Assembly (NCBI RefSeq): GCF_013184745.1
Contig: NZ_JAATVU010000049.1
Location: forward strand, 1-44,456
Length of the DNA stretch: 44,456 nucleotides
Reading direction: 5' to 3'
Source: Mangrovicoccus sp. HB161399
GTDB taxonomy: Bacteria > Pseudomonadota > Alphaproteobacteria > Rhodobacterales > Rhodobacteraceae
Below the pieces are notes generated by a model. That model was not told the origin of the DNA, did not search any database, and saw only the letters and a list, made by a program, of their open reading frames with translations. Positions 16,068-33,514 of this stretch are shown in pieces; within the stretch, counting starts at the first letter, position 1; each line of letters opens with the position of its first letter. A program made the position numbers and the translations under genes.

Positions 16068-16235
16068 GCGATTGTGATGCCCGGGGCGCGCACCTACCTT
16101 TTCCCGGTGGGCATGTCAGCCAGAAACCGCAGCCAGCTGTCCGCCCCGATGTCTGCCGCAGGTCCGGACCGGCCGTGGCCGCCCCGTCCCGCGCATCTCC
16201 GCGGCGGCGTAGATTACCGAGTGACGAGGACAAAG

Positions 16236-22561: not shown

Positions 22562-23023
22562 TCAGCCTTGCCCGTTCCGGATCGGGAACGGGATGCGGCG
22601 GCTGAATTCCGTGCCGTCCGCGGCCACCGCCTTCAGCCGGATGTTCCAGTTGCCGTCCGGAAGGTCCAGCGGCGTCGCATAGACCGCGCCGTTGCGGGTG
22701 AATTCCGGGGTCACGTCGTCCCGGGTCGAGGTCGCCCAGCCGACCAGCGCGGCCATCGAGGAAATCTCCGCGGGACCGCCATCCGGCCCGGTGATCTCGA
22801 TTTCCAGCACCTTGTCGGCATAGCGGGCATCCACGGTCCATCCCAGCGCCAGCTGCGCCGACTTGTGGACGTCGAATTCCTGGCTTGCCTGGTAGCTGCT
22901 GGCGGTCTCGATCCCCGGGAAGGTCGCCACCGCCTGCCAGGCCATGACCACGTTCACCGCGATGACGATCCCGAAGGAGGCCACCGCGATCATCAGAACC
23001 TTGAAGCCGGTCAGTTCGCCCAT
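22562..23023 (-). CDS. ccoH: CcoH/FixH family cbb3 oxidase assembly protein
   Basis: The 153-aa protein has one N-terminal membrane helix (residues 7-30) and a periplasmic domain with the FixH-type SYQASQEFDVHKSAQLALGW segment followed by DGNWNIRLKA. CcoH associates with the assembling cbb3 complex and stabilises it. The ATG overlaps the ccoG stop by one base (TGATG), which fixes the start at 23023 even though the frame stays open upstream. Confidence 0.92.
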   Translation of the reverse strand: MGELTGFKVLMIAVASFGIVIAVNVVMAWQAVATFPGIETASSYQASQEFDVHKSAQLALGWTVDARYADKVLEIEITGPDGGPAEISSMAALVGWATSTRDDVTPEFTRNGAVYATPLDLPDGNWNIRLKAVAADGTEFSRRIPFPIRNGQG

Positions 23024-24513
23024 CACTTCGTCCCCTTGCCGTTGAACACGGTATCCTTCTCGGTCGCTTCCTTGCTCACCGTGTCCTCGACATGGATCCA
23101 CAGGTCGGTCCGGTTCGCGGCCGCCGCCTCGGAGCCCGGCGCCGCCATGATATAGACCCGCTGCAGCATCGTCGAATCCGCTGGCACCATCACCGTCTGG
23201 GTGTCGGAACCTTCGAGATCGACGGCGAAGGGCTCGTCCGATTCCACCGTGATCAGGTAGGGCCGGTCCTCGCCGTGCTTGTTGCGCAGCCGCACGTCAT
23301 AGGTGTTGCGGATCGTGCCGTCCGAAAGGGTGATGTAGACCGGGTTGCGGATCGGCGCGACGGTGACCGATATGTCCTCGCGCATGAAGAGCGCGGCCAC
23401 CAGGCCGACGCCGACCCCGCCCCAGAGCACGGTATAGAGGATCGTGCGCGGCCGCAGGACATGCTTGAGCACCGGGATCGGGGTCTTGCCCGACTTCTCG
23501 TGCTCCTCGTCGGTCAGCGCCATGTAGTCGATCAGCCCGCGCGGCTTGCCGATCTTGTCCATGATCTCGTTGCAGGCGTCGATGCACAGGCCGCAGGTTA
23601 TGCATTCCAGCTGCTGGCCGTCGCGGATGTCGATCCCCATCGGACAGACGTTCACGCAGGCGTTGCAGTCGATGCAGTCGCCCAGGGAGGGCGCGTCCTT
23701 CGGCGCCTCGCGCTGGCTGATCGCATCGGCGGTGCGGGTCGTCTCGGCCACCTCGACATGCTTGCGGCGGTGCTTGCCGCGCGGTTCGCCCCGCCAGGAG
23801 CGGTAGGCGATGGTGATCGTGTCCTCGTCCATCATCGCCGCCTGGATGCGCGGCCAGGGGCACATGTAGATGCAGACCTGTTCGCGCATGAAGCCGCCGA
23901 AGATGAAGGTCGTGGCCGTCAGCAGCCCGACGGTCGTGTAGGCCACGAGCGGCGCCTGGAAGGTCACGAGGTCATGCAGCAGCGTCGGCGCATCGGCGAA
24001 ATAGAACACCCAGGCACCGCCGGTGGCGACGGCGATGGCGAACCAGACCGCCCATTTGGTGATCCTGAGCCGCGCCTTGTGCGCGTCCCATTTCTGCCGC
24101 AGCAGGCGGATGCGGTTGTTGCGGTCGCCCTCGATCCAGCGCTCCACCAGGATGAAGAGATCGACCCAGACGGTCTGGGGGCAGGTATAGCCGCACCAGA
24201 CCCGGCCCAGGGCCGAGGTGAACAGGAAGAGGCCGAGACCGGCCATGATCAAGAGGCCCGCGACGAAGTAGAATTCATGCGGCCAGATCTCGATCCAGAA
24301 GAAGAAGAAGCGGCGGTTGGCGAGATCGATCAGCACCGCCTGGTCGGGCAGCTTGGCGCCGCGGTCCCAGCGGATCCAGGGCGTCACGTAGTAGATGCCC
24401 AGCGTGACGATCATGATGATCCATTTGAGCCGGCGGTAGTTCCCCGAGATGCGCTTGGGGAAGATCGGCTCGCGGCTGGCATAAAGGGAGGGGGGCTGCT
24501 CGCTCGCGCTCAT
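23023..24513 (-). CDS. ccoG: CcoG/RdxA, membrane iron-sulfur cupric reductase for cbb3 assembly
   Basis: The 496-aa protein has several transmembrane helices (about 29-45, 80-105, 150-172, 183-203, 354-372). Cys motifs CGYTCPQTVW and CIYMCPWPR lie in the membrane part, and two 4Fe-4S motifs are present: CIDCNACVNVCP and CITCGLCIDACN. The C-terminal periplasmic part is the Ig-like FixG domain. Family members reduce Cu(II) during cbb3 oxidase assembly. It is the first gene of ccoGHIS, with an FNR box 66-79 bases upstream of its start codon. Confidence 0.94.
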   Translation of the reverse strand: MSASEQPPSLYASREPIFPKRISGNYRRLKWIIMIVTLGIYYVTPWIRWDRGAKLPDQAVLIDLANRRFFFFWIEIWPHEFYFVAGLLIMAGLGLFLFTSALGRVWCGYTCPQTVWVDLFILVERWIEGDRNNRIRLLRQKWDAHKARLRITKWAVWFAIAVATGGAWVFYFADAPTLLHDLVTFQAPLVAYTTVGLLTATTFIFGGFMREQVCIYMCPWPRIQAAMMDEDTITIAYRSWRGEPRGKHRRKHVEVAETTRTADAISQREAPKDAPSLGDCIDCNACVNVCPMGIDIRDGQQLECITCGLCIDACNEIMDKIGKPRGLIDYMALTDEEHEKSGKTPIPVLKHVLRPRTILYTVLWGGVGVGLVAALFMREDISVTVAPIRNPVYITLSDGTIRNTYDVRLRNKHGEDRPYLITVESDEPFAVDLEGSDTQTVMVPADSTMLQRVYIMAAPGSEAAAANRTDLWIHVEDTVSKEATEKDTVFNGKGTK

Positions 24514-24578: not shown

Positions 24579-24592
24579 TTGACGTGGATCAA
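24579..24592 (-). promoter_or_regulatory. FNR box of the ccoGHIS promoter
   Basis: TTGACGTGGATCAA is one base from the TTGAT-N4-ATCAA consensus. If it acts as a class II site (centre at -41.5) the minus-strand start would be near 24544, giving a leader of about 30 bases before ccoG. A -10-like AGATAC/GATACA lies in the right place. Confidence 0.8.
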
Positions 24593-24628: not shown

Positions 24629-24684
24629 CAAAAAAACATCGGCACCCCCCAAGGAAACGCGCGAACAGGAAGGGGTGCCGATGT
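24629..24684 (-). terminator. Strong intrinsic terminator, minus strand, with an unusually large loop
   Basis: ACATCGGCACCCC (24636-24648) and its exact complement at 24672-24684 form a 13-bp perfect stem around a 23-nt loop. On the minus strand it is followed by seven T residues (24630-24636, the last pairing in the stem). No annotated minus-strand gene lies just upstream, since the DUF2270 gene runs the other way. Confidence 0.88.
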
Positions 24685-24724
24685 TGAGAGGATCCGAACG
24701 AGGTTCAGCACCGGTCGGTCCTTG
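24629..24724 (-). ncRNA. Candidate FNR-activated small RNA
   Basis: No protein gene on the minus strand ends here, yet a very strong terminator does. Upstream on that strand are a -10-like TAGAAC (24731-24736) and an FNR dyad (24759-24772). The centre-to-centre distance of 32 bases is what a class II FNR promoter requires, and it predicts a start near 24724. The transcript would be about 95 nt, with C/U-rich single-stranded patches (CCTCTC, and TTCCTG in the large terminator loop) that could pair with ribosome sites. This is inference from layout; expression is unproven. Confidence 0.5.
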
Positions 24725-24758
24725 CCCCCGGTTCTACGCGCGACTCGCCCCCCCGGCT

Positions 24759-24772
24759 TTGACACAGGTCAA
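24759..24772. promoter_or_regulatory. FNR-type dyad between ccoG and the DUF2270 gene
   Basis: TTGACACAGGTCAA is a perfect dyad, TTGAC-N4-GTCAA, one base per half from TTGAT. It is symmetric and so could serve either strand. The minus-strand -10 candidate (TAGAAC) fits better than the plus-strand one (GCACAT near 24795), which favours the small-RNA direction, but the DUF2270 gene may share it. Confidence 0.65.
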
Positions 24773-24863: not shown

Positions 24864-25553
24864 ATGGGCCAGGCAGAGCCGCGGGTGGCGACATCCGCGA
24901 AGAGGGAATTCACCCAGGCGGAGATCGGCGCGATCGCGCATCTCTACCGCGGCGAAGTCTACCGCAGCACGATCTGGCGGACGCGGCTCGACACGACGAC
25001 CAACTGGTCGGTGGTGACGCTGGGCGTGGCGCTGTCGATTGCCTTCTCCTCGCCGGGCGCGTCGGAGCTGCCGCTGCTGCTGGTGGGCGTGCTGATCGGG
25101 CTCTTCATGGTGCTGGAGGCGCGGCGCTACCGCTATTTCAACGTCTGGCGGGCGCGGGCGCGCTGGATGGAGACGCATTTCTACGCGCCGATGCTGGATG
25201 ACGGCGACCTGCATACCGAGGAGAACTGGCAGAAGACCCTGGCCAAGGATTATTGGCGGCCGGAATACCATGTCAGCATGTCCCGCGCGATGGGCCGCCG
25301 GATCCGGCGCAACTACCTGTGGATCCTGTCGATCCAGTATCTCGCCTATCTGGGCAAGCTGACCGTCCATCCGGTTCCCGCGCGCGGCATCGGCGACGTG
25401 ATCGGCCGCGCCGCGATCGGACCGGCGCCGGGCTGGGCGGTGCTGGGCTTCGGGCTGTTCTATCTCGGAAGCTGGCTGGCGCTGGCGGAATGGGTCCGCC
25501 GCAAGGACGCGGCCAGCGCGCGCAGGAAGGGCGGCGGCAAGTCGCTGGGCTAG
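24864..25553 (+). CDS. DUF2270 membrane protein
   Basis: The 229-aa protein matches DUF2270: FTQAEIGAIAHLYRGEVYRSTIWRTRLDTTTNW, then two adjacent membrane helices (about 48-63 and 68-85), the conserved ARRYRYFNVWRARARWMETHFYAP region (motif pieces quoted separately in the family), and two C-terminal helices (about 155-170 and 195-212). The function is unknown. The start has a GGAAGGGGAGG ribosome region. An FNR-type dyad about 92 bases upstream and the cco neighbours suggest a low-oxygen role, by context only. Confidence 0.82.
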   Translation: MGQAEPRVATSAKREFTQAEIGAIAHLYRGEVYRSTIWRTRLDTTTNWSVVTLGVALSIAFSSPGASELPLLLVGVLIGLFMVLEARRYRYFNVWRARARWMETHFYAPMLDDGDLHTEENWQKTLAKDYWRPEYHVSMSRAMGRRIRRNYLWILSIQYLAYLGKLTVHPVPARGIGDVIGRAAIGPAPGWAVLGFGLFYLGSWLALAEWVRRKDAASARRKGGGKSLG

Positions 25554-25572: not shown

Positions 25573-26640
25573 TCACGCGAAGGAGATGTCGTCGGCGATG
25601 GCCGCGACATCGGTGTAGCCGAGCAGCGTCAGCGACTCGCCCCCGTCGAAGCGGAACACCAGGTCGCTTCCCTCGACCTCGGCGAAGGCATCGACCACCT
25701 CGTCGGCAGTGAGCTCGCCGGACCACAGCGCGGGATCGAACACCAGCTCGTCCGCCCCGGTGCCGAAATCGGTCACGACGTCGTCGCCGTAGCCGACGCC
25801 GAAGCGGAACTCGTCGGCCCCGCCGCCGCCTTCCAGTTCGTCGTCGCCGAGCGCGCCGTCCAGCACGTCGCGTCCGAAGCCGCCGAACAGCTTGTCCTCG
25901 CCGCGCCCGCCGTTCAGCGTGTCGTCGCCCATGCCGCCGAACAGCCGGTCATGGCCCTTGCCGCCGAAGATGTGGTCGCGCCCGGCCTTCCCGGCCAGCC
26001 AGTCGTTTCCGGTGCCGCCATAGACCCAGTCGGCGCCGAACTTGGCCGTCACGGTGTCGTTGCCGATGCCGGAATAGAACGTTTCCGACGCCGCGGTCCC
26101 GACGATCACGTCATCCTCGGTGATCATCACGCCCGGCACGTCCAGAAGGTCGAAAACCGCCGCTTCCTGCGGTGCCACCTGCAGCGCGTAGCTGCTGTCC
26201 TCTGCGGTGGTCAGCTCGAAGAACTCCACCAGCTTCGCATAGCTGCTGACGTCCAGCCCGGTGACATTGAACAGCGGGACCGGCCCGGAGACATAGTCGT
26301 CGGACAGGAAGGACAGGCCCAGCATGCCGTCATATTCGCCGCTGCCGCCGGTATCGATGTAGCGGAAGACGATGCCGGTCCAGGCCGCATCGTCCGTGGT
26401 CAGCTCCAGCCCGTCGAGCTCGAAGGCATAGGGGCTGACCGCGTCCCCGGTGCCGTCGCTGAACGTCAGGGCGTTCAGTCCCGGACTCTGCTCCAGCGGC
26501 GAGGGATCGCCCTGCACGATCGAGATGCCGTCCGGCAGGACGATGCGCAGCTCCAACGGGACATATTCATAGCCGTCGTCGCCCGGACGCAGGCTGGAAG
26601 TATTGTCGAATGCGTATCCGACAAGAACATAGGTCGTCAT
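25573..26640 (-). CDS. RTX-repeat calcium-binding protein, probably type I secreted
   Basis: The 355-aa protein has no signal peptide. Residues 1-185 are an acidic domain of no recognised family. About seven nonapeptide repeats of the GGxGxDxLx type follow (roughly 205-275: GGTGNDWLA, GGKGHDRLF, GGMGDDTLN, GGRGEDKLF and similar), which bind Ca2+ as a parallel beta-roll. A C-terminal hydrophobic/acidic segment resembles type I secretion signals. The ATG at 26640 has a GGAGG ribosome site. No ABC exporter or membrane-fusion gene is nearby, so a distant secretion system is required. It sits between the terminator of ccoNOQP and the DUF2270 gene. Confidence 0.87.
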   Translation of the reverse strand: MTTYVLVGYAFDNTSSLRPGDDGYEYVPLELRIVLPDGISIVQGDPSPLEQSPGLNALTFSDGTGDAVSPYAFELDGLELTTDDAAWTGIVFRYIDTGGSGEYDGMLGLSFLSDDYVSGPVPLFNVTGLDVSSYAKLVEFFELTTAEDSSYALQVAPQEAAVFDLLDVPGVMITEDDVIVGTAASETFYSGIGNDTVTAKFGADWVYGGTGNDWLAGKAGRDHIFGGKGHDRLFGGMGDDTLNGGRGEDKLFGGFGRDVLDGALGDDELEGGGGADEFRFGVGYGDDVVTDFGTGADELVFDPALWSGELTADEVVDAFAEVEGSDLVFRFDGGESLTLLGYTDVAAIADDISFA

Positions 26641-26695
26641 TTCAATAACCTCCGCGTCCCGAAACCATAGGGGACTACCTCTCAAACACAAATGG

Positions 26696-26738: not shown

Positions 26739-27605
26739 TTACTCGCCGCCGCCGAGTCCGTGGACATAGGTGGCCACGGCATTGATCTGGGCGTCGGTGA
26801 GGCGCGCATTCCAGTTCGGCATGACGCCGAAGCGGGCCTTGGTGATCGACTCGACGATGGTGTCATAGTCGCCGCCGTAGAGCCAGATTGCATCCGACAG
26901 GTTGGGTGCGCCGAATTCGCGGTTGCCCACGCCGCCTTCCATGTGGCAGGCGACGCAGTTGTCCTCGAAGAGCTGCGCGCCCTGGTCGACCAGCGAGGCA
27001 TCCTGCGGCTCGCCCGAAAGCGACATGACGTAGTTGGCCAGCGAGGCGATCTCGCCCGGGGCCAGCATCTCGCCGAAGGCCGGCATCTGGCTGAACCGGG
27101 CGTCCGGGTCGGTCTCGTTCCGGATGCCGTGGGTGACGGTGTAGTGGATCGCCTCGATGTCGCCGCCCCAGAGCCAGTCGTCGTCCAGCAGGTTCGGGAA
27201 GCCGGTGGCCCCCGCCGCGCCCGAGCCGTGGCACTGCGCGCACCAGGTGCGGAACACCGCGGCGCCGGCATTGACGGCATACTGGTTCAGCTCGGGATCG
27301 TCGCCGATCGCGGTCAGGTCGGCCGCGGCCAGCTGCGCGTCGATCGCGGCATTGGCCTCCTGCATCTGGGCGATCTCCTCGGCCACCTGGCCGCGGGTCG
27401 ACCAGCCGAGCAGCCCCGGCCAGGCGCCGGAGAAGCCGGGCCAGGACGGCATCAGGATCGAGTAGACCAGGCCCCAGCCGATGCAGATGTAGAACACGAT
27501 CAGCCACCAGCGCGGCATCGGGTTGTCGTATTCCTCGATCCCGTCCCAGGAATGGCCCGTCGTCGGGACATCGCCCTGGTGGGTCTTGTCGGAATGGTTG
27601 CTCAT
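26739..27605 (-). CDS. ccoP: cbb3-type cytochrome c oxidase subunit III (dihaem cytochrome c)
   Basis: The 288-aa subunit has a membrane anchor at residues 33-53 and two c-type haem sites, C122-x2-C125-H126 (CAQCH) and C217-x2-C220-H221 (CVACH), with likely Met ligands in SQMPAFGE and GVMPNWN. CcoP passes electrons from soluble cytochromes to CcoO and CcoN. Its ATG overlaps the ccoQ stop by 4 bases. It is the last gene of ccoNOQP. Confidence 0.97.
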   Translation of the reverse strand: MSNHSDKTHQGDVPTTGHSWDGIEEYDNPMPRWWLIVFYICIGWGLVYSILMPSWPGFSGAWPGLLGWSTRGQVAEEIAQMQEANAAIDAQLAAADLTAIGDDPELNQYAVNAGAAVFRTWCAQCHGSGAAGATGFPNLLDDDWLWGGDIEAIHYTVTHGIRNETDPDARFSQMPAFGEMLAPGEIASLANYVMSLSGEPQDASLVDQGAQLFEDNCVACHMEGGVGNREFGAPNLSDAIWLYGGDYDTIVESITKARFGVMPNWNARLTDAQINAVATYVHGLGGGE

Positions 27606-30251: not shown

Positions 30252-30265
30252 TTGATCTGTATCAA
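30252..30265 (-). promoter_or_regulatory. FNR box of the ccoNOQP promoter (perfect consensus)
   Basis: TTGATCTGTATCAA matches TTGAT-N4-ATCAA exactly. As a class II site it predicts a minus-strand start near 30217, with CATAGC (30224-30229) at the -10 position and a leader of about 68 bases. Confidence 0.9.
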
Positions 30266-31351: not shown

Positions 31352-32107
31352 TCAGACCAGGTAGCCGCCGTCGCTGTCGTCGCCGGTTTCGCCGAGCAGC
31401 CGCTCGAAATCCGGGATTGTGACGTGGCGCTTGCCCTCGAGCTGGATCACCCCGTCCTTGCGCAGCGCGGTGATCTGGCGGCTGACGGTTTCCAGCGTCA
31501 GGCCGAGGTAGTCGGCCATCGCCTCGCGGGTCAGCGGCAGGTCGAAGACCATCGACTTGTCCTTGCCCTTGAGGTTCAGCGAGGCGTCGCGGCGGGCGAT
31601 GATCGCGATCAGGCTGGCGATCTTCTCGCGCGCGGTCTTGCGGCCGAGCAGCAGCATCCATTCCCGCGCGGCGTCGAGCTCGTCCAGCGTCATCTCCAGC
31701 AGGCGCTGGCCGATATGCGGGGTCTTCTCCATCAGCGATTCGAACGGCCGCTTGCGGAAGCAGCAGATGATCAGGTCGGTCGTCGCGGTCACGTCATAGG
31801 CCGCGTCGTCGCGTCCCGGCCGCCCGATGAAGTCCGACGGCAGCAGCAGGCCCACCATCTGAGTGCGCCCGTCCTCCATCGTCTGCGACAGGGTCGCGAT
31901 GCCCGAGACCACGGAGGCCACGAAATCCATCCGGTCACCGGCCCAGACCACCGTCTGACCCGCCGGATAGGTACGGTAATACTTGATTTCTTCCAGCCGC
32001 TCGAGCTCTTCGGCCTCGCAGCGCGCACAGACGGCCCGATGCCGAATCGGGCAGTCGCGGCAATCGGGGACATGGTCGTTGTGGCTCAGTTTCACGGCGG
32101 TGTTCAT
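31352..32107 (-). CDS. fnrL: FnrL, Crp/Fnr-family oxygen-sensing regulator
   Basis: The 251-aa protein has the N-terminal cysteine cluster Cys16, Cys19, Cys27 (Cys30 also present) plus Cys115/116 in the sensor domain, enough for an oxygen-labile 4Fe-4S cluster. The cNMP-like beta-barrel spans about 38-130, the dimer helix about 137-165, and the HTH contains E206-TV-SR210, the residues that read TTGAT in FNR proteins. The start at 32107 was chosen over the open frame to 32176 because an FNR box occupies 32111-32124. That position, immediately before the start codon, suggests autorepression. Confidence 0.95.
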   Translation of the reverse strand: MNTAVKLSHNDHVPDCRDCPIRHRAVCARCEAEELERLEEIKYYRTYPAGQTVVWAGDRMDFVASVVSGIATLSQTMEDGRTQMVGLLLPSDFIGRPGRDDAAYDVTATTDLIICCFRKRPFESLMEKTPHIGQRLLEMTLDELDAAREWMLLLGRKTAREKIASLIAIIARRDASLNLKGKDKSMVFDLPLTREAMADYLGLTLETVSRQITALRKDGVIQLEGKRHVTIPDFERLLGETGDDSDGGYLV

Positions 32108-32110
32108 GAT

Positions 32111-32124
32111 TTGACCTCGATCAA
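32111..32124. promoter_or_regulatory. FNR box between fnrL and hemN
   Basis: TTGACCTCGATCAA is one base from consensus. For fnrL its nearest edge is 3 bases from the start codon, so binding would block initiation. For hemN on the plus strand the class II prediction puts the transcript start almost on the ATG at 32159. Confidence 0.82.
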
Positions 32125-32158
32125 GGTCGGAGGTGATGGACCGGCTAAACGTATTCGA

Positions 32159-33514
32159 ATGAGCCTGATGACACAACTCTCCCGCCTCGGATTATTTGAC
32201 GCGCGCGTTCCGCGCTACACCAGCTATCCGACTGCGCCGCAATTTTCCAACAACGTGGATGCGGCGCTGAACCGGAAGTGGATCGGTTCCGTCGCGCCCG
32301 GCTCGGAAATCTCGCTCTACGTGCATGTTCCCTTCTGCCGGCACCTGTGCTGGTTCTGCGCCTGCCGGACCCAGGGCACGCAGAAGCTCGACACCGTGCG
32401 CGCCTATCTGGATACCCTGCTGTCGGAAATCCGCCAGTTGGACGCCATGCTGCCAGAGGGCGTGACCCTGTCGCGGCTGCATTGGGGCGGCGGCACGCCG
32501 ACCATGATGGACGCGGAGATGATCCGCACCCTGTCGCAGGCGATCTGCGCCGTGGCCCCGCTGGCGCCGGGCGGCGAATTTTCGGTGGAGATCGACCCCA
32601 ACGAGATCGACGCGGCACGCATGGATGCGCTGGCCGAAGCCGGGATGAACCGCGCCTCGATCGGCGTCCAGGATTTCGACCCCGAGATCCAGAAGACCAT
32701 CGGCCGGATCCAGAGCTACGAGGTGACCGAGCAGGCGGTCCAGCTTATCCGAGCGGCGGGCGTCCGCAGCCTCAATGCCGACATCCTCTACGGCCTGCCC
32801 GACCAGACCCCCGCCCGCATCGCCGATTCCGTGCAGAAGCTGCTGAGCCTGTCGCCCGACCGGGTCGCGCTCTACGGCTATGCGCATGTGCCGTGGATGG
32901 CGCGGCGGCAGTCGATGATCCCCTCTGCGCTGCTGCCCACGCCCGAAGAGCGGCTGAAGCTGTTCGAGACCGCGCGCAAGCTGTTCCTCTGGGACGGCTA
33001 CATGGAAGTCGGCATCGACCATTTCGCCCGCCCCTTCGACAGCATGGCCGTGGCGCAGCGCGAAGGGCGGCTGCGGCGGAATTTCCAGGGCTATACCGAG
33101 GACCCGGCCGAGGTGCTGATCGGCATCGGCGCCTCGTCGATCTCGCGCTTCCCGCAGGGCTACGCGCAGAACGCCTCCTCGACCTCGGACTACACGGCGC
33201 TGGTGCGCGCGGGGCGGCTGCCGACGATGCGCGGCCATGCCTTCACCGGCGAGGACAAGGTGCGCGCCCGGATCATCGAGATGCTGATGTGCGACTTCGC
33301 CTTCGATCTCGCTCCGGTGCTCTGCCCGGACGGTCCCGGCGCCGACACCGTGCGCAGCTGGATGGCCGCCGCGGCAGCGCAGTTCCAGGGCTTCGTCACG
33401 CTAGAGGGCGACCGGTTCGAGATCACCCGCGACGGCCGTCCGCTGGCACGGATCGTCGCCCGCGCCTTCGATGCCTATGACATGAGCAAGACCGGCCACA
33501 GCACCGCGGTCTGA
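32159..33514 (+). CDS. hemN: Oxygen-independent coproporphyrinogen III oxidase (radical SAM)
   Basis: The 451-aa enzyme converts coproporphyrinogen III to protoporphyrinogen IX without oxygen. The radical-SAM cysteines are C60-x3-C64-x2-C67 with the HemN-specific Cys69, followed by HWGGGTPTMM, SIGVQDFDPEIQKTIGR and DILYGLPDQT. RVPRYTSYPTAPQF at residues 17-30 is the expected HemN start, so ATG 32159 (or 32168, three codons later) is the start although no ribosome site sits at the usual distance. It is divergent from fnrL with an FNR box between, giving anaerobic induction of haem synthesis for the cbb3 oxidase. Confidence 0.95.
   Translation: MSLMTQLSRLGLFDARVPRYTSYPTAPQFSNNVDAALNRKWIGSVAPGSEISLYVHVPFCRHLCWFCACRTQGTQKLDTVRAYLDTLLSEIRQLDAMLPEGVTLSRLHWGGGTPTMMDAEMIRTLSQAICAVAPLAPGGEFSVEIDPNEIDAARMDALAEAGMNRASIGVQDFDPEIQKTIGRIQSYEVTEQAVQLIRAAGVRSLNADILYGLPDQTPARIADSVQKLLSLSPDRVALYGYAHVPWMARRQSMIPSALLPTPEERLKLFETARKLFLWDGYMEVGIDHFARPFDSMAVAQREGRLRRNFQGYTEDPAEVLIGIGASSISRFPQGYAQNASSTSDYTALVRAGRLPTMRGHAFTGEDKVRARIIEMLMCDFAFDLAPVLCPDGPGADTVRSWMAAAAAQFQGFVTLEGDRFEITRDGRPLARIVARAFDAYDMSKTGHSTAV

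Follow-up and report, generated by a model that had tools for sequence, protein, structure and literature searches.

The window analyzed here, that is, the whole stretch of 44,456 bases of contig NZ_JAATVU010000049.1 from Mangrovicoccus sp. HB161399, raises the question of what a terminator-like hairpin does between ccoG and a DUF2270 gene of the cbb3 oxidase locus, where a preliminary description had proposed an FNR-activated small RNA of about 95 nucleotides (nt). The comparative analysis supports this proposal: the element is probably a small RNA of the FnrL regulon, in which a hairpin at the 5' end is followed by a terminator hairpin that exposes a conserved loop, and it would act in trans. 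Its predicted parts are the following.

24759..24772, minus strand: FNR/FnrL dyad TTGACCTGTGTCAA (plus strand TTGACACAGGTCAA), a perfect dyad with spacing nearly kept in two congeners
24731..24736, minus strand: -10 box TAGAAC, 32 bases from the dyad centre
24630..24724, minus strand: predicted small RNA of about 95 nt, from the start set by a dyad at -41.5 to the end of the U-tail, as judged from sequence, fold and promoter position
24689..24722, minus strand: hairpin 1, at the predicted 5' end (predicted fold)
24636..24684, minus strand: hairpin 2, with a 13-base-pair (bp) stem, fitting the published HRC-8-4 motif (fold and covariation)
24649..24671, minus strand: 23-nt loop of hairpin 2 with the conserved core CCUGUUCGCGCGUUUCC (comparison of relatives)
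24630..24636, minus strand: run of seven U, the terminator tail, its first U belonging to the last stem pair

Direct reading of the sequence gives a 13-bp stem without mismatch (left arm 24684-24672 with right arm 24648-24636), and the perfect minus-strand stem, seven-U run and 23-nt loop described beforehand were confirmed base by base. The loop had been called unusually large; its size stands, but it proved to be the most conserved part of the element. The 98-nt RNA from 24724 to 24627 has a predicted fold of -39.5 kcal/mol against -28.3 (standard deviation, sd, 3.4) for shuffled sequences, none of 200 of which folded as well. A simple terminator scan was near chance across the window (10 found, 6.3 expected, sd 2.2) and, because of its loop limit, returned only a shortened alternative stem at hairpin 2; the case beyond chance therefore lies in conservation, namely 14 matches in 101 genomes by DNA search and 196 of 394 family genomes by covariance model, the window's own genome included in both.

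The box TAGAAC and the perfect dyad, 32 bases apart from centre to centre, had been said to fit a class II promoter with its dyad at -41.5, and the sequence bears this out: the -10 box stands in the matching place, and such a dyad sets the predicted start at 24724 and hence the length of about 95 nt. The pattern TTGACNNNNGTCAA has a single perfect match in the 44,456 bases, the small-RNA dyad itself. Dyads with one mismatch occur at 24579 and 32111, another FNR-like dyad at 30252, and dyads with at most two mismatches number 13 against 7.5 expected. An ordinary terminator, with a dyad serving DUF2270 or present by chance, could be envisaged, given that terminator-like stems are common and that DUF2270 is divergent from the dyad in the window genome and its two nearest relatives. 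This is very improbable, as the loop and stem are conserved family-wide, the dyad is kept in 30 copies having ccoP upstream on the same strand, and the -10 place on the DUF2270-facing side reads GCACAT, which is poor in comparison with the TAGAAC facing the small RNA.

In the DNA search, two congeners matched over most of the query (about 250 bases) and the rest at the hairpin alone. The match in L014 was discarded as unlike the hairpin, and the covariance model was built from the other 13 of the 14 sequences. A draw of 190 genomes of the class yielded 12 model matches at E<=0.01, two from family genomes (one of them the window's own) at 77 and 58 bits and ten from other families at no more than 35 bits; it is by this gap in bit score, within this draw, that the element appears restricted to Rhodobacterales. 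Named carriers include the laboratory organism Paracoccus denitrificans (locus L143, with the hairpin at the 3' end of ccoNOQP), P. yeei, Rhodobacter viridis and Rhodovulum steppense, together with Shimia, Roseovarius, Thalassovita, Salipiger and Gemmobacter. The dyad lies 96 and 98 nt from the loop in the two congeners (98 in the window), and a third congener, G003, gave a weak match to the hairpin model (E 7e-5). Retention of promoter, stem and loop in relatives had been set beforehand as a check, and it was observed by DNA search, covariance model and dyad survey.

That the conserved entity is a structured RNA is shown by 99 distinct copies, in which all 10 tested pairs vary on both sides, with 155 covarying cells against 45.6 in shuffles and 94.5% of cells paired against 79.7% in shuffles and at most 45% in slid versions. 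The seven outer pairs hold G-U or U-G 33 times and A-C or C-A once, an excess which fixes the ccoP strand as the transcribed one. The loop core CUGUUCGCGCGUUU recurs with few changes, also in weaker matches outside the exact-loop selection, although a covariance model favours its own loop. Loci L045-L162 were collected, among the matches listed, with a 17-base loop pattern that had to match exactly, so that identity of the loop is built into them and the 15 invariant loop columns are no measurement, a fairer view being given by the weaker matches and the regions missed by the model. The core was read with few changes in 19 of 20 weaker model matches, the pattern printing a different stretch in L264. 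A terminator-like stem with conserved tip nucleotides is thus seen, together with a U-run that is weak in many relatives.

The genes by which the copies were placed are, in the window, as follows.

26739..27605, minus strand: ccoP, last gene of ccoNOQP (Pfam Cytochrome_CBB3 and FixP_N)
24864..25553, plus strand: DUF2270 membrane protein gene (Pfam PF10028), divergent from the small RNA here
24579..24592, minus strand: FNR dyad of ccoG, with one mismatch, between the hairpin and ccoG
23023..24513, minus strand: ccoG, of the FixG/RdxB family (Pfam Fer4_18 and FixG_C)
31352..32176, minus strand: fnrL, of the Crp/FNR family, with CxxC..CxxC near the N-terminus as read from the translation; we take it, from its family, to encode the activator

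The survey comprised 145 structured copies in 140 loci, of which 33 (duplicates, or copies without a cco or DUF2270 gene) were removed to leave 112, and the dyad was searched for within 260 nt upstream of each. Among the matches listed, 66 of the 112 copies lie within 100 nt 3' of ccoP and none of the 66 has a dyad. Copies farther from ccoP have it in 30 of 35 cases, the five misses being second or third tandem copies, and copies without ccoP upstream in the locus have it in 10 of 11, the miss sitting 69 nt from the locus edge; the background away from hairpins in the same loci is 0.044 dyads per 260 nt. Fisher's test of dyad against position gives p 8e-21, a value that ignores kinship. On a ccoP tree of 85 rows (built without loci whose aligned ccoP fell short of 240 residues or whose ccoP was a repeat; no locus with ccoP was excluded for want of a dyad), the dyad tracks position without exception (25 of 25 rows against 0 of 60). 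Position changes 14 times on the best tree, a count to be taken as suggestive because strongly supported branches force only three of the changes. Among the 20 weaker matches, 18 are dyad-free and lie no farther than 100 nt from ccoP, one has a dyad and no ccoP in its 901 bases, and one is a third tandem copy. With the dyad absent beside ccoP and present farther off, transcription therefore appears tied to FnrL in both architectures, a connection that is new here. FnrL sites have been reported at ccoNOQP and at rdxBHIS (ccoGHIS) in Rhodobacter sphaeroides (PMC2908626, in the part available). The small RNA of about 95 nt behind its own promoter is accordingly what is predicted in the window, where ccoP and the hairpin are separated by an RTX-repeat protein gene and DUF2270, but the same claim does not extend to most of the relatives examined, where the hairpin is the 3' end of ccoNOQP.

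The stand-alone copies share further promoter features. In 36 of the 40 dyad copies an A occupies position +30 counted from the dyad centre, which is -11 in a class II promoter, and the -10 score of the 40 peaks at offset 29 with 3.0 against an offset mean of 1.1 (sd 0.4). In all 40, the predicted leader fold opens with a hairpin no more than 10 nt from the predicted start (-5.3 to -33.2 kcal/mol), and 31 reach p<=0.05 against shuffles. Near ccoP, a spacer hairpin of -8 kcal/mol or better precedes the element in 73 of 74 copies, duplicates included, and 59 of the 66 distinct copies reach p<=0.05. Tandem copies stand 91-92 nt apart in L052, L068 and L153, with both hairpins repeated, and 286 nt apart in L073. 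Two further arrangements were observed: in L036, L040, L043 and L044 long leaders open with a GC-rich hairpin with the tip GGGGCCCUCCCCC, followed by a second hairpin and then the conserved one, and one contig of Shimia thalassica (L071 and L092) bears a copy behind ccoP without a dyad as well as a copy with its own dyad before ccoG.

These architectures bear on the view that the hairpin is a 3'-end element whose only role is to end and protect the ccoNOQP message or to bind a protein at that place, without action in trans. The 66 copies close behind ccoP, nearly all preceded by another hairpin, speak for it, and the constancy of the loop would suit a single protein partner. The 40 copies off ccoP that carry their own FNR dyad are at odds with it, their predicted RNA consisting of little beyond two or three hairpins, and ending a message would not call for tandem copies; we regard this explanation as unlikely, though not negligible.

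The place, lineage and form of the element fit HRC-8-4, a published motif of unknown function proposed to be riboswitch-like (Brewer et al. 2021, PMC8632094). In the available part of that paper, HRC-8-4 is described as confined to Rhodobacterales and located between ccoNOQP and ccoGHIS, the site found in the window and relatives, with a strong terminator-like stem, conserved tip nucleotides and hvrB often adjacent; the identity proposed here is by this description and not by consensus letters. The authors speculated on a riboswitch or on HvrB binding, and their HRC-8-4 section, as available, names no FNR boxes, tandem copies or 5' hairpin, unlike the element described here. The literature search found no other paper using the name HRC-8-4.

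One rival, the one put forward for HRC-8-4, is a switch in the leader of a downstream gene (ccoG or hvrB), riboswitch-like or bound by a protein. It draws on the fact that the next known gene is on the hairpin strand in 95 of 112 copies: ccoG in 70, the LysR-type hvrB in 21 and an AraC-type gene in 4. Where ccoG is the next sense gene, 69 of 75 copies have an intervening FNR dyad 61-100 nt ahead of the ccoG start, which places the hairpin upstream of the likely ccoG promoter and not in the leader of the gene to be controlled. In 10 of 112 copies the next gene is a convergent DUF2270, at 4-68 nt in nine and 553 nt in one, and hvrB starts 266-1269 nt from the hairpin. A ccoG riboswitch is hence unlikely by the intervening dyad and the convergent gene, and the switch reading as a whole is judged highly unlikely. 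No FNR dyad was found between the hairpin and the LysR-type gene (22 copies; hvrB by the name in PMC8632094, LysR by Pfam) or the AraC-type gene (4 copies), and a leader role is therefore possible there. In L065, L114, L156 and L159, all from Shimia, the AraC-type gene (assigned by Pfam in L065) has its start 87-91 nt beyond the hairpin, on the hairpin strand.

DUF2270 recurs beside the hairpin, divergent and upstream in the genus of the window (L001-L003) and convergent and downstream in L004, L058, L094, L101, L108, L111, L117, L122, L128 and L146. The gene parting it from ccoP in the window (25573-26691, minus strand) encodes an RTX calcium-binding repeat protein (PF00353) inside the cco locus.

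The C/U-rich patches had been described as able to pair with ribosome sites; no consistent target of this kind was obtained in the genome, the window, the neighbouring gene starts or the patterns searched in 120 genomes. In those 120 genomes, loop complements beside an ATG, sought with two patterns, exceeded the reversed control among the matches listed, a control not matched for codon or ribosome-site composition. An all-against-all protein comparison of 60 loci from these hits revealed no shared family among the loci with a reading frame; many had none because a single strand was read. A repeated hit before the start of a putative guanylate kinase was set aside, as it looks like a conserved protein end. 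Within the window, the strongest pairing besides the antisense of the hairpin itself is near 16216 on the minus strand (-33.0 kcal/mol). It exceeded 20 shuffles (best -31.5), although these covered less sequence; when the scan was matched, 3 of 40 shuffled loops equalled it, no gene start is evident there, and the site was rejected. Of the 16S rRNA gene, a partial copy was recovered.

Pairing of the hairpin with ccoG itself was also considered, through a complementarity of 11-13 nt, GCGCGAACAGG, in the coding region (codons R-E-Q). It is present in the window genome, and in L290, where a diverged hairpin follows ccoP, 11 nt perfectly complementary to its loop cover the ccoG ribosome site, an arrangement that is not general. 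With GCGCGAACAGG kept in only 10 of 80 ccoG genes, whose codons vary, and GCGAACAGG in only 2 of 109 ccoG leaders, this explanation is scarcely credible.

Several observations weigh against an FnrL-dependent small RNA acting in trans by pairing. The complement of the loop occurs at 47 sites in its own genome (up to three mismatches, the hairpin included) as against 64 for the reversed control, and pairing of the loop with the starts of the cco genes, hvrB and DUF2270 was no better than that of shuffled loops. The ccoP tree offers only three well-supported independent pairs (p 0.25). Oxidase genes are more widespread than the hairpin, ccoO being present in 355 of the 394 family genomes and the model thus missing many oxidase-bearing genomes. 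Of 20 ccoP-ccoG regions missed by the model, 16 show no trace of the loop, so that its absence is real in part of the family, and a diverged loop is kept in four (L288, L290, L291 and L292), no more than 70 nt behind ccoP. The U-run is often weak, the 8-nt windows scored downstream of the stem containing two U or fewer in 47 of the 66 near-ccoP copies and 16 of the 40 dyad copies. In the literature text available, no small RNA between ccoP and ccoG is reported besides the HRC-8-4 motif. Finally, we judge the loop to be more constant than is usually required of an RNA that pairs with drifting mRNA targets; this constancy speaks for an unchanging partner, for example a protein. It is consequently possible, if doubtful, that HRC-8-4 is the widespread small RNA of the low-oxygen switch in Rhodobacteraceae, kept by selection under FnrL either way, and that its loop has a single constant partner (some protein, or an RNA of high abundance) instead of a shifting set of mRNAs. 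In that case the RNA would serve as an oxygen-set decoy or adaptor, unlike small RNAs of the usual pairing kind.

On the preferred reading of a trans-acting small RNA of the FnrL regulon, FnrL would at low oxygen activate the RNA's own class II promoter where the hairpin stands apart from ccoP, as in the window genome, and in most relatives examined the ccoNOQP message, driven by FnrL, would carry the hairpin at its 3' end and may release it. The role of hairpin 1 would be to mark the 5' end or shield it, and that of hairpin 2 to end the RNA and present the loop, which on its stable stem could act in trans, most likely by base pairing with mRNA, tuning expression during production of the cbb3 oxidase. 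Should this hold, an orphan RNA motif published as a candidate riboswitch becomes a candidate for a small RNA regulated by FnrL, for which start, end and strand are predicted. The element would also offer a case for conversion between a 3' untranslated region (3'-UTR) and a stand-alone small RNA, in that it seems to keep its regulator across two gene architectures.

Among known small RNAs, FnrS of Escherichia coli, an Rfam family, is switched on by FNR at low oxygen, and the element predicted here resembles it in its FNR-type activation under low oxygen; unlike FnrS, it belongs to the cbb3 locus and is often an mRNA 3' end. At the Rfam gathering score the sole match in the window was a tRNA, with none at the hairpin, and at E up to 10 five weak matches appeared at the hairpin site, none named FnrS. 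The CcsR or cuckoo RNAs of Rhodobacter are likewise made with an upstream mRNA, CcsR copies standing in tandem with two stem-loops; the loop here, CCUGUUCGCGCGUUUCC, is without the CUCCUCCC motif of those RNAs. A text search of the literature with four loop strings gave no match, and nothing was found for the ccoP-ccoG place in the available parts of PMC3320616 and PMC4809877. Small RNAs of P. denitrificans are treated in PMC6686037 and PMC5107571 (the full list, of 167 small RNAs, being in a supplement of PMC5107571, and the papers available in part). PMC4263372, as far as its available text goes, names FnrS and reports that in R. sphaeroides 13 FnrL sites fall outside the promoters of genes, including two at small RNAs. 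These two, RSs0019 and RSs2461, have FnrL sites in their putative promoters and come from the same bacterial family as the element described here, from which they are set apart by locus, being named at other loci (PMC4263372). The 3'-UTR small RNA UdsC, as described in the partial text available, is made with its upstream mRNA and in this respect is like the 3'-end form of the present element.
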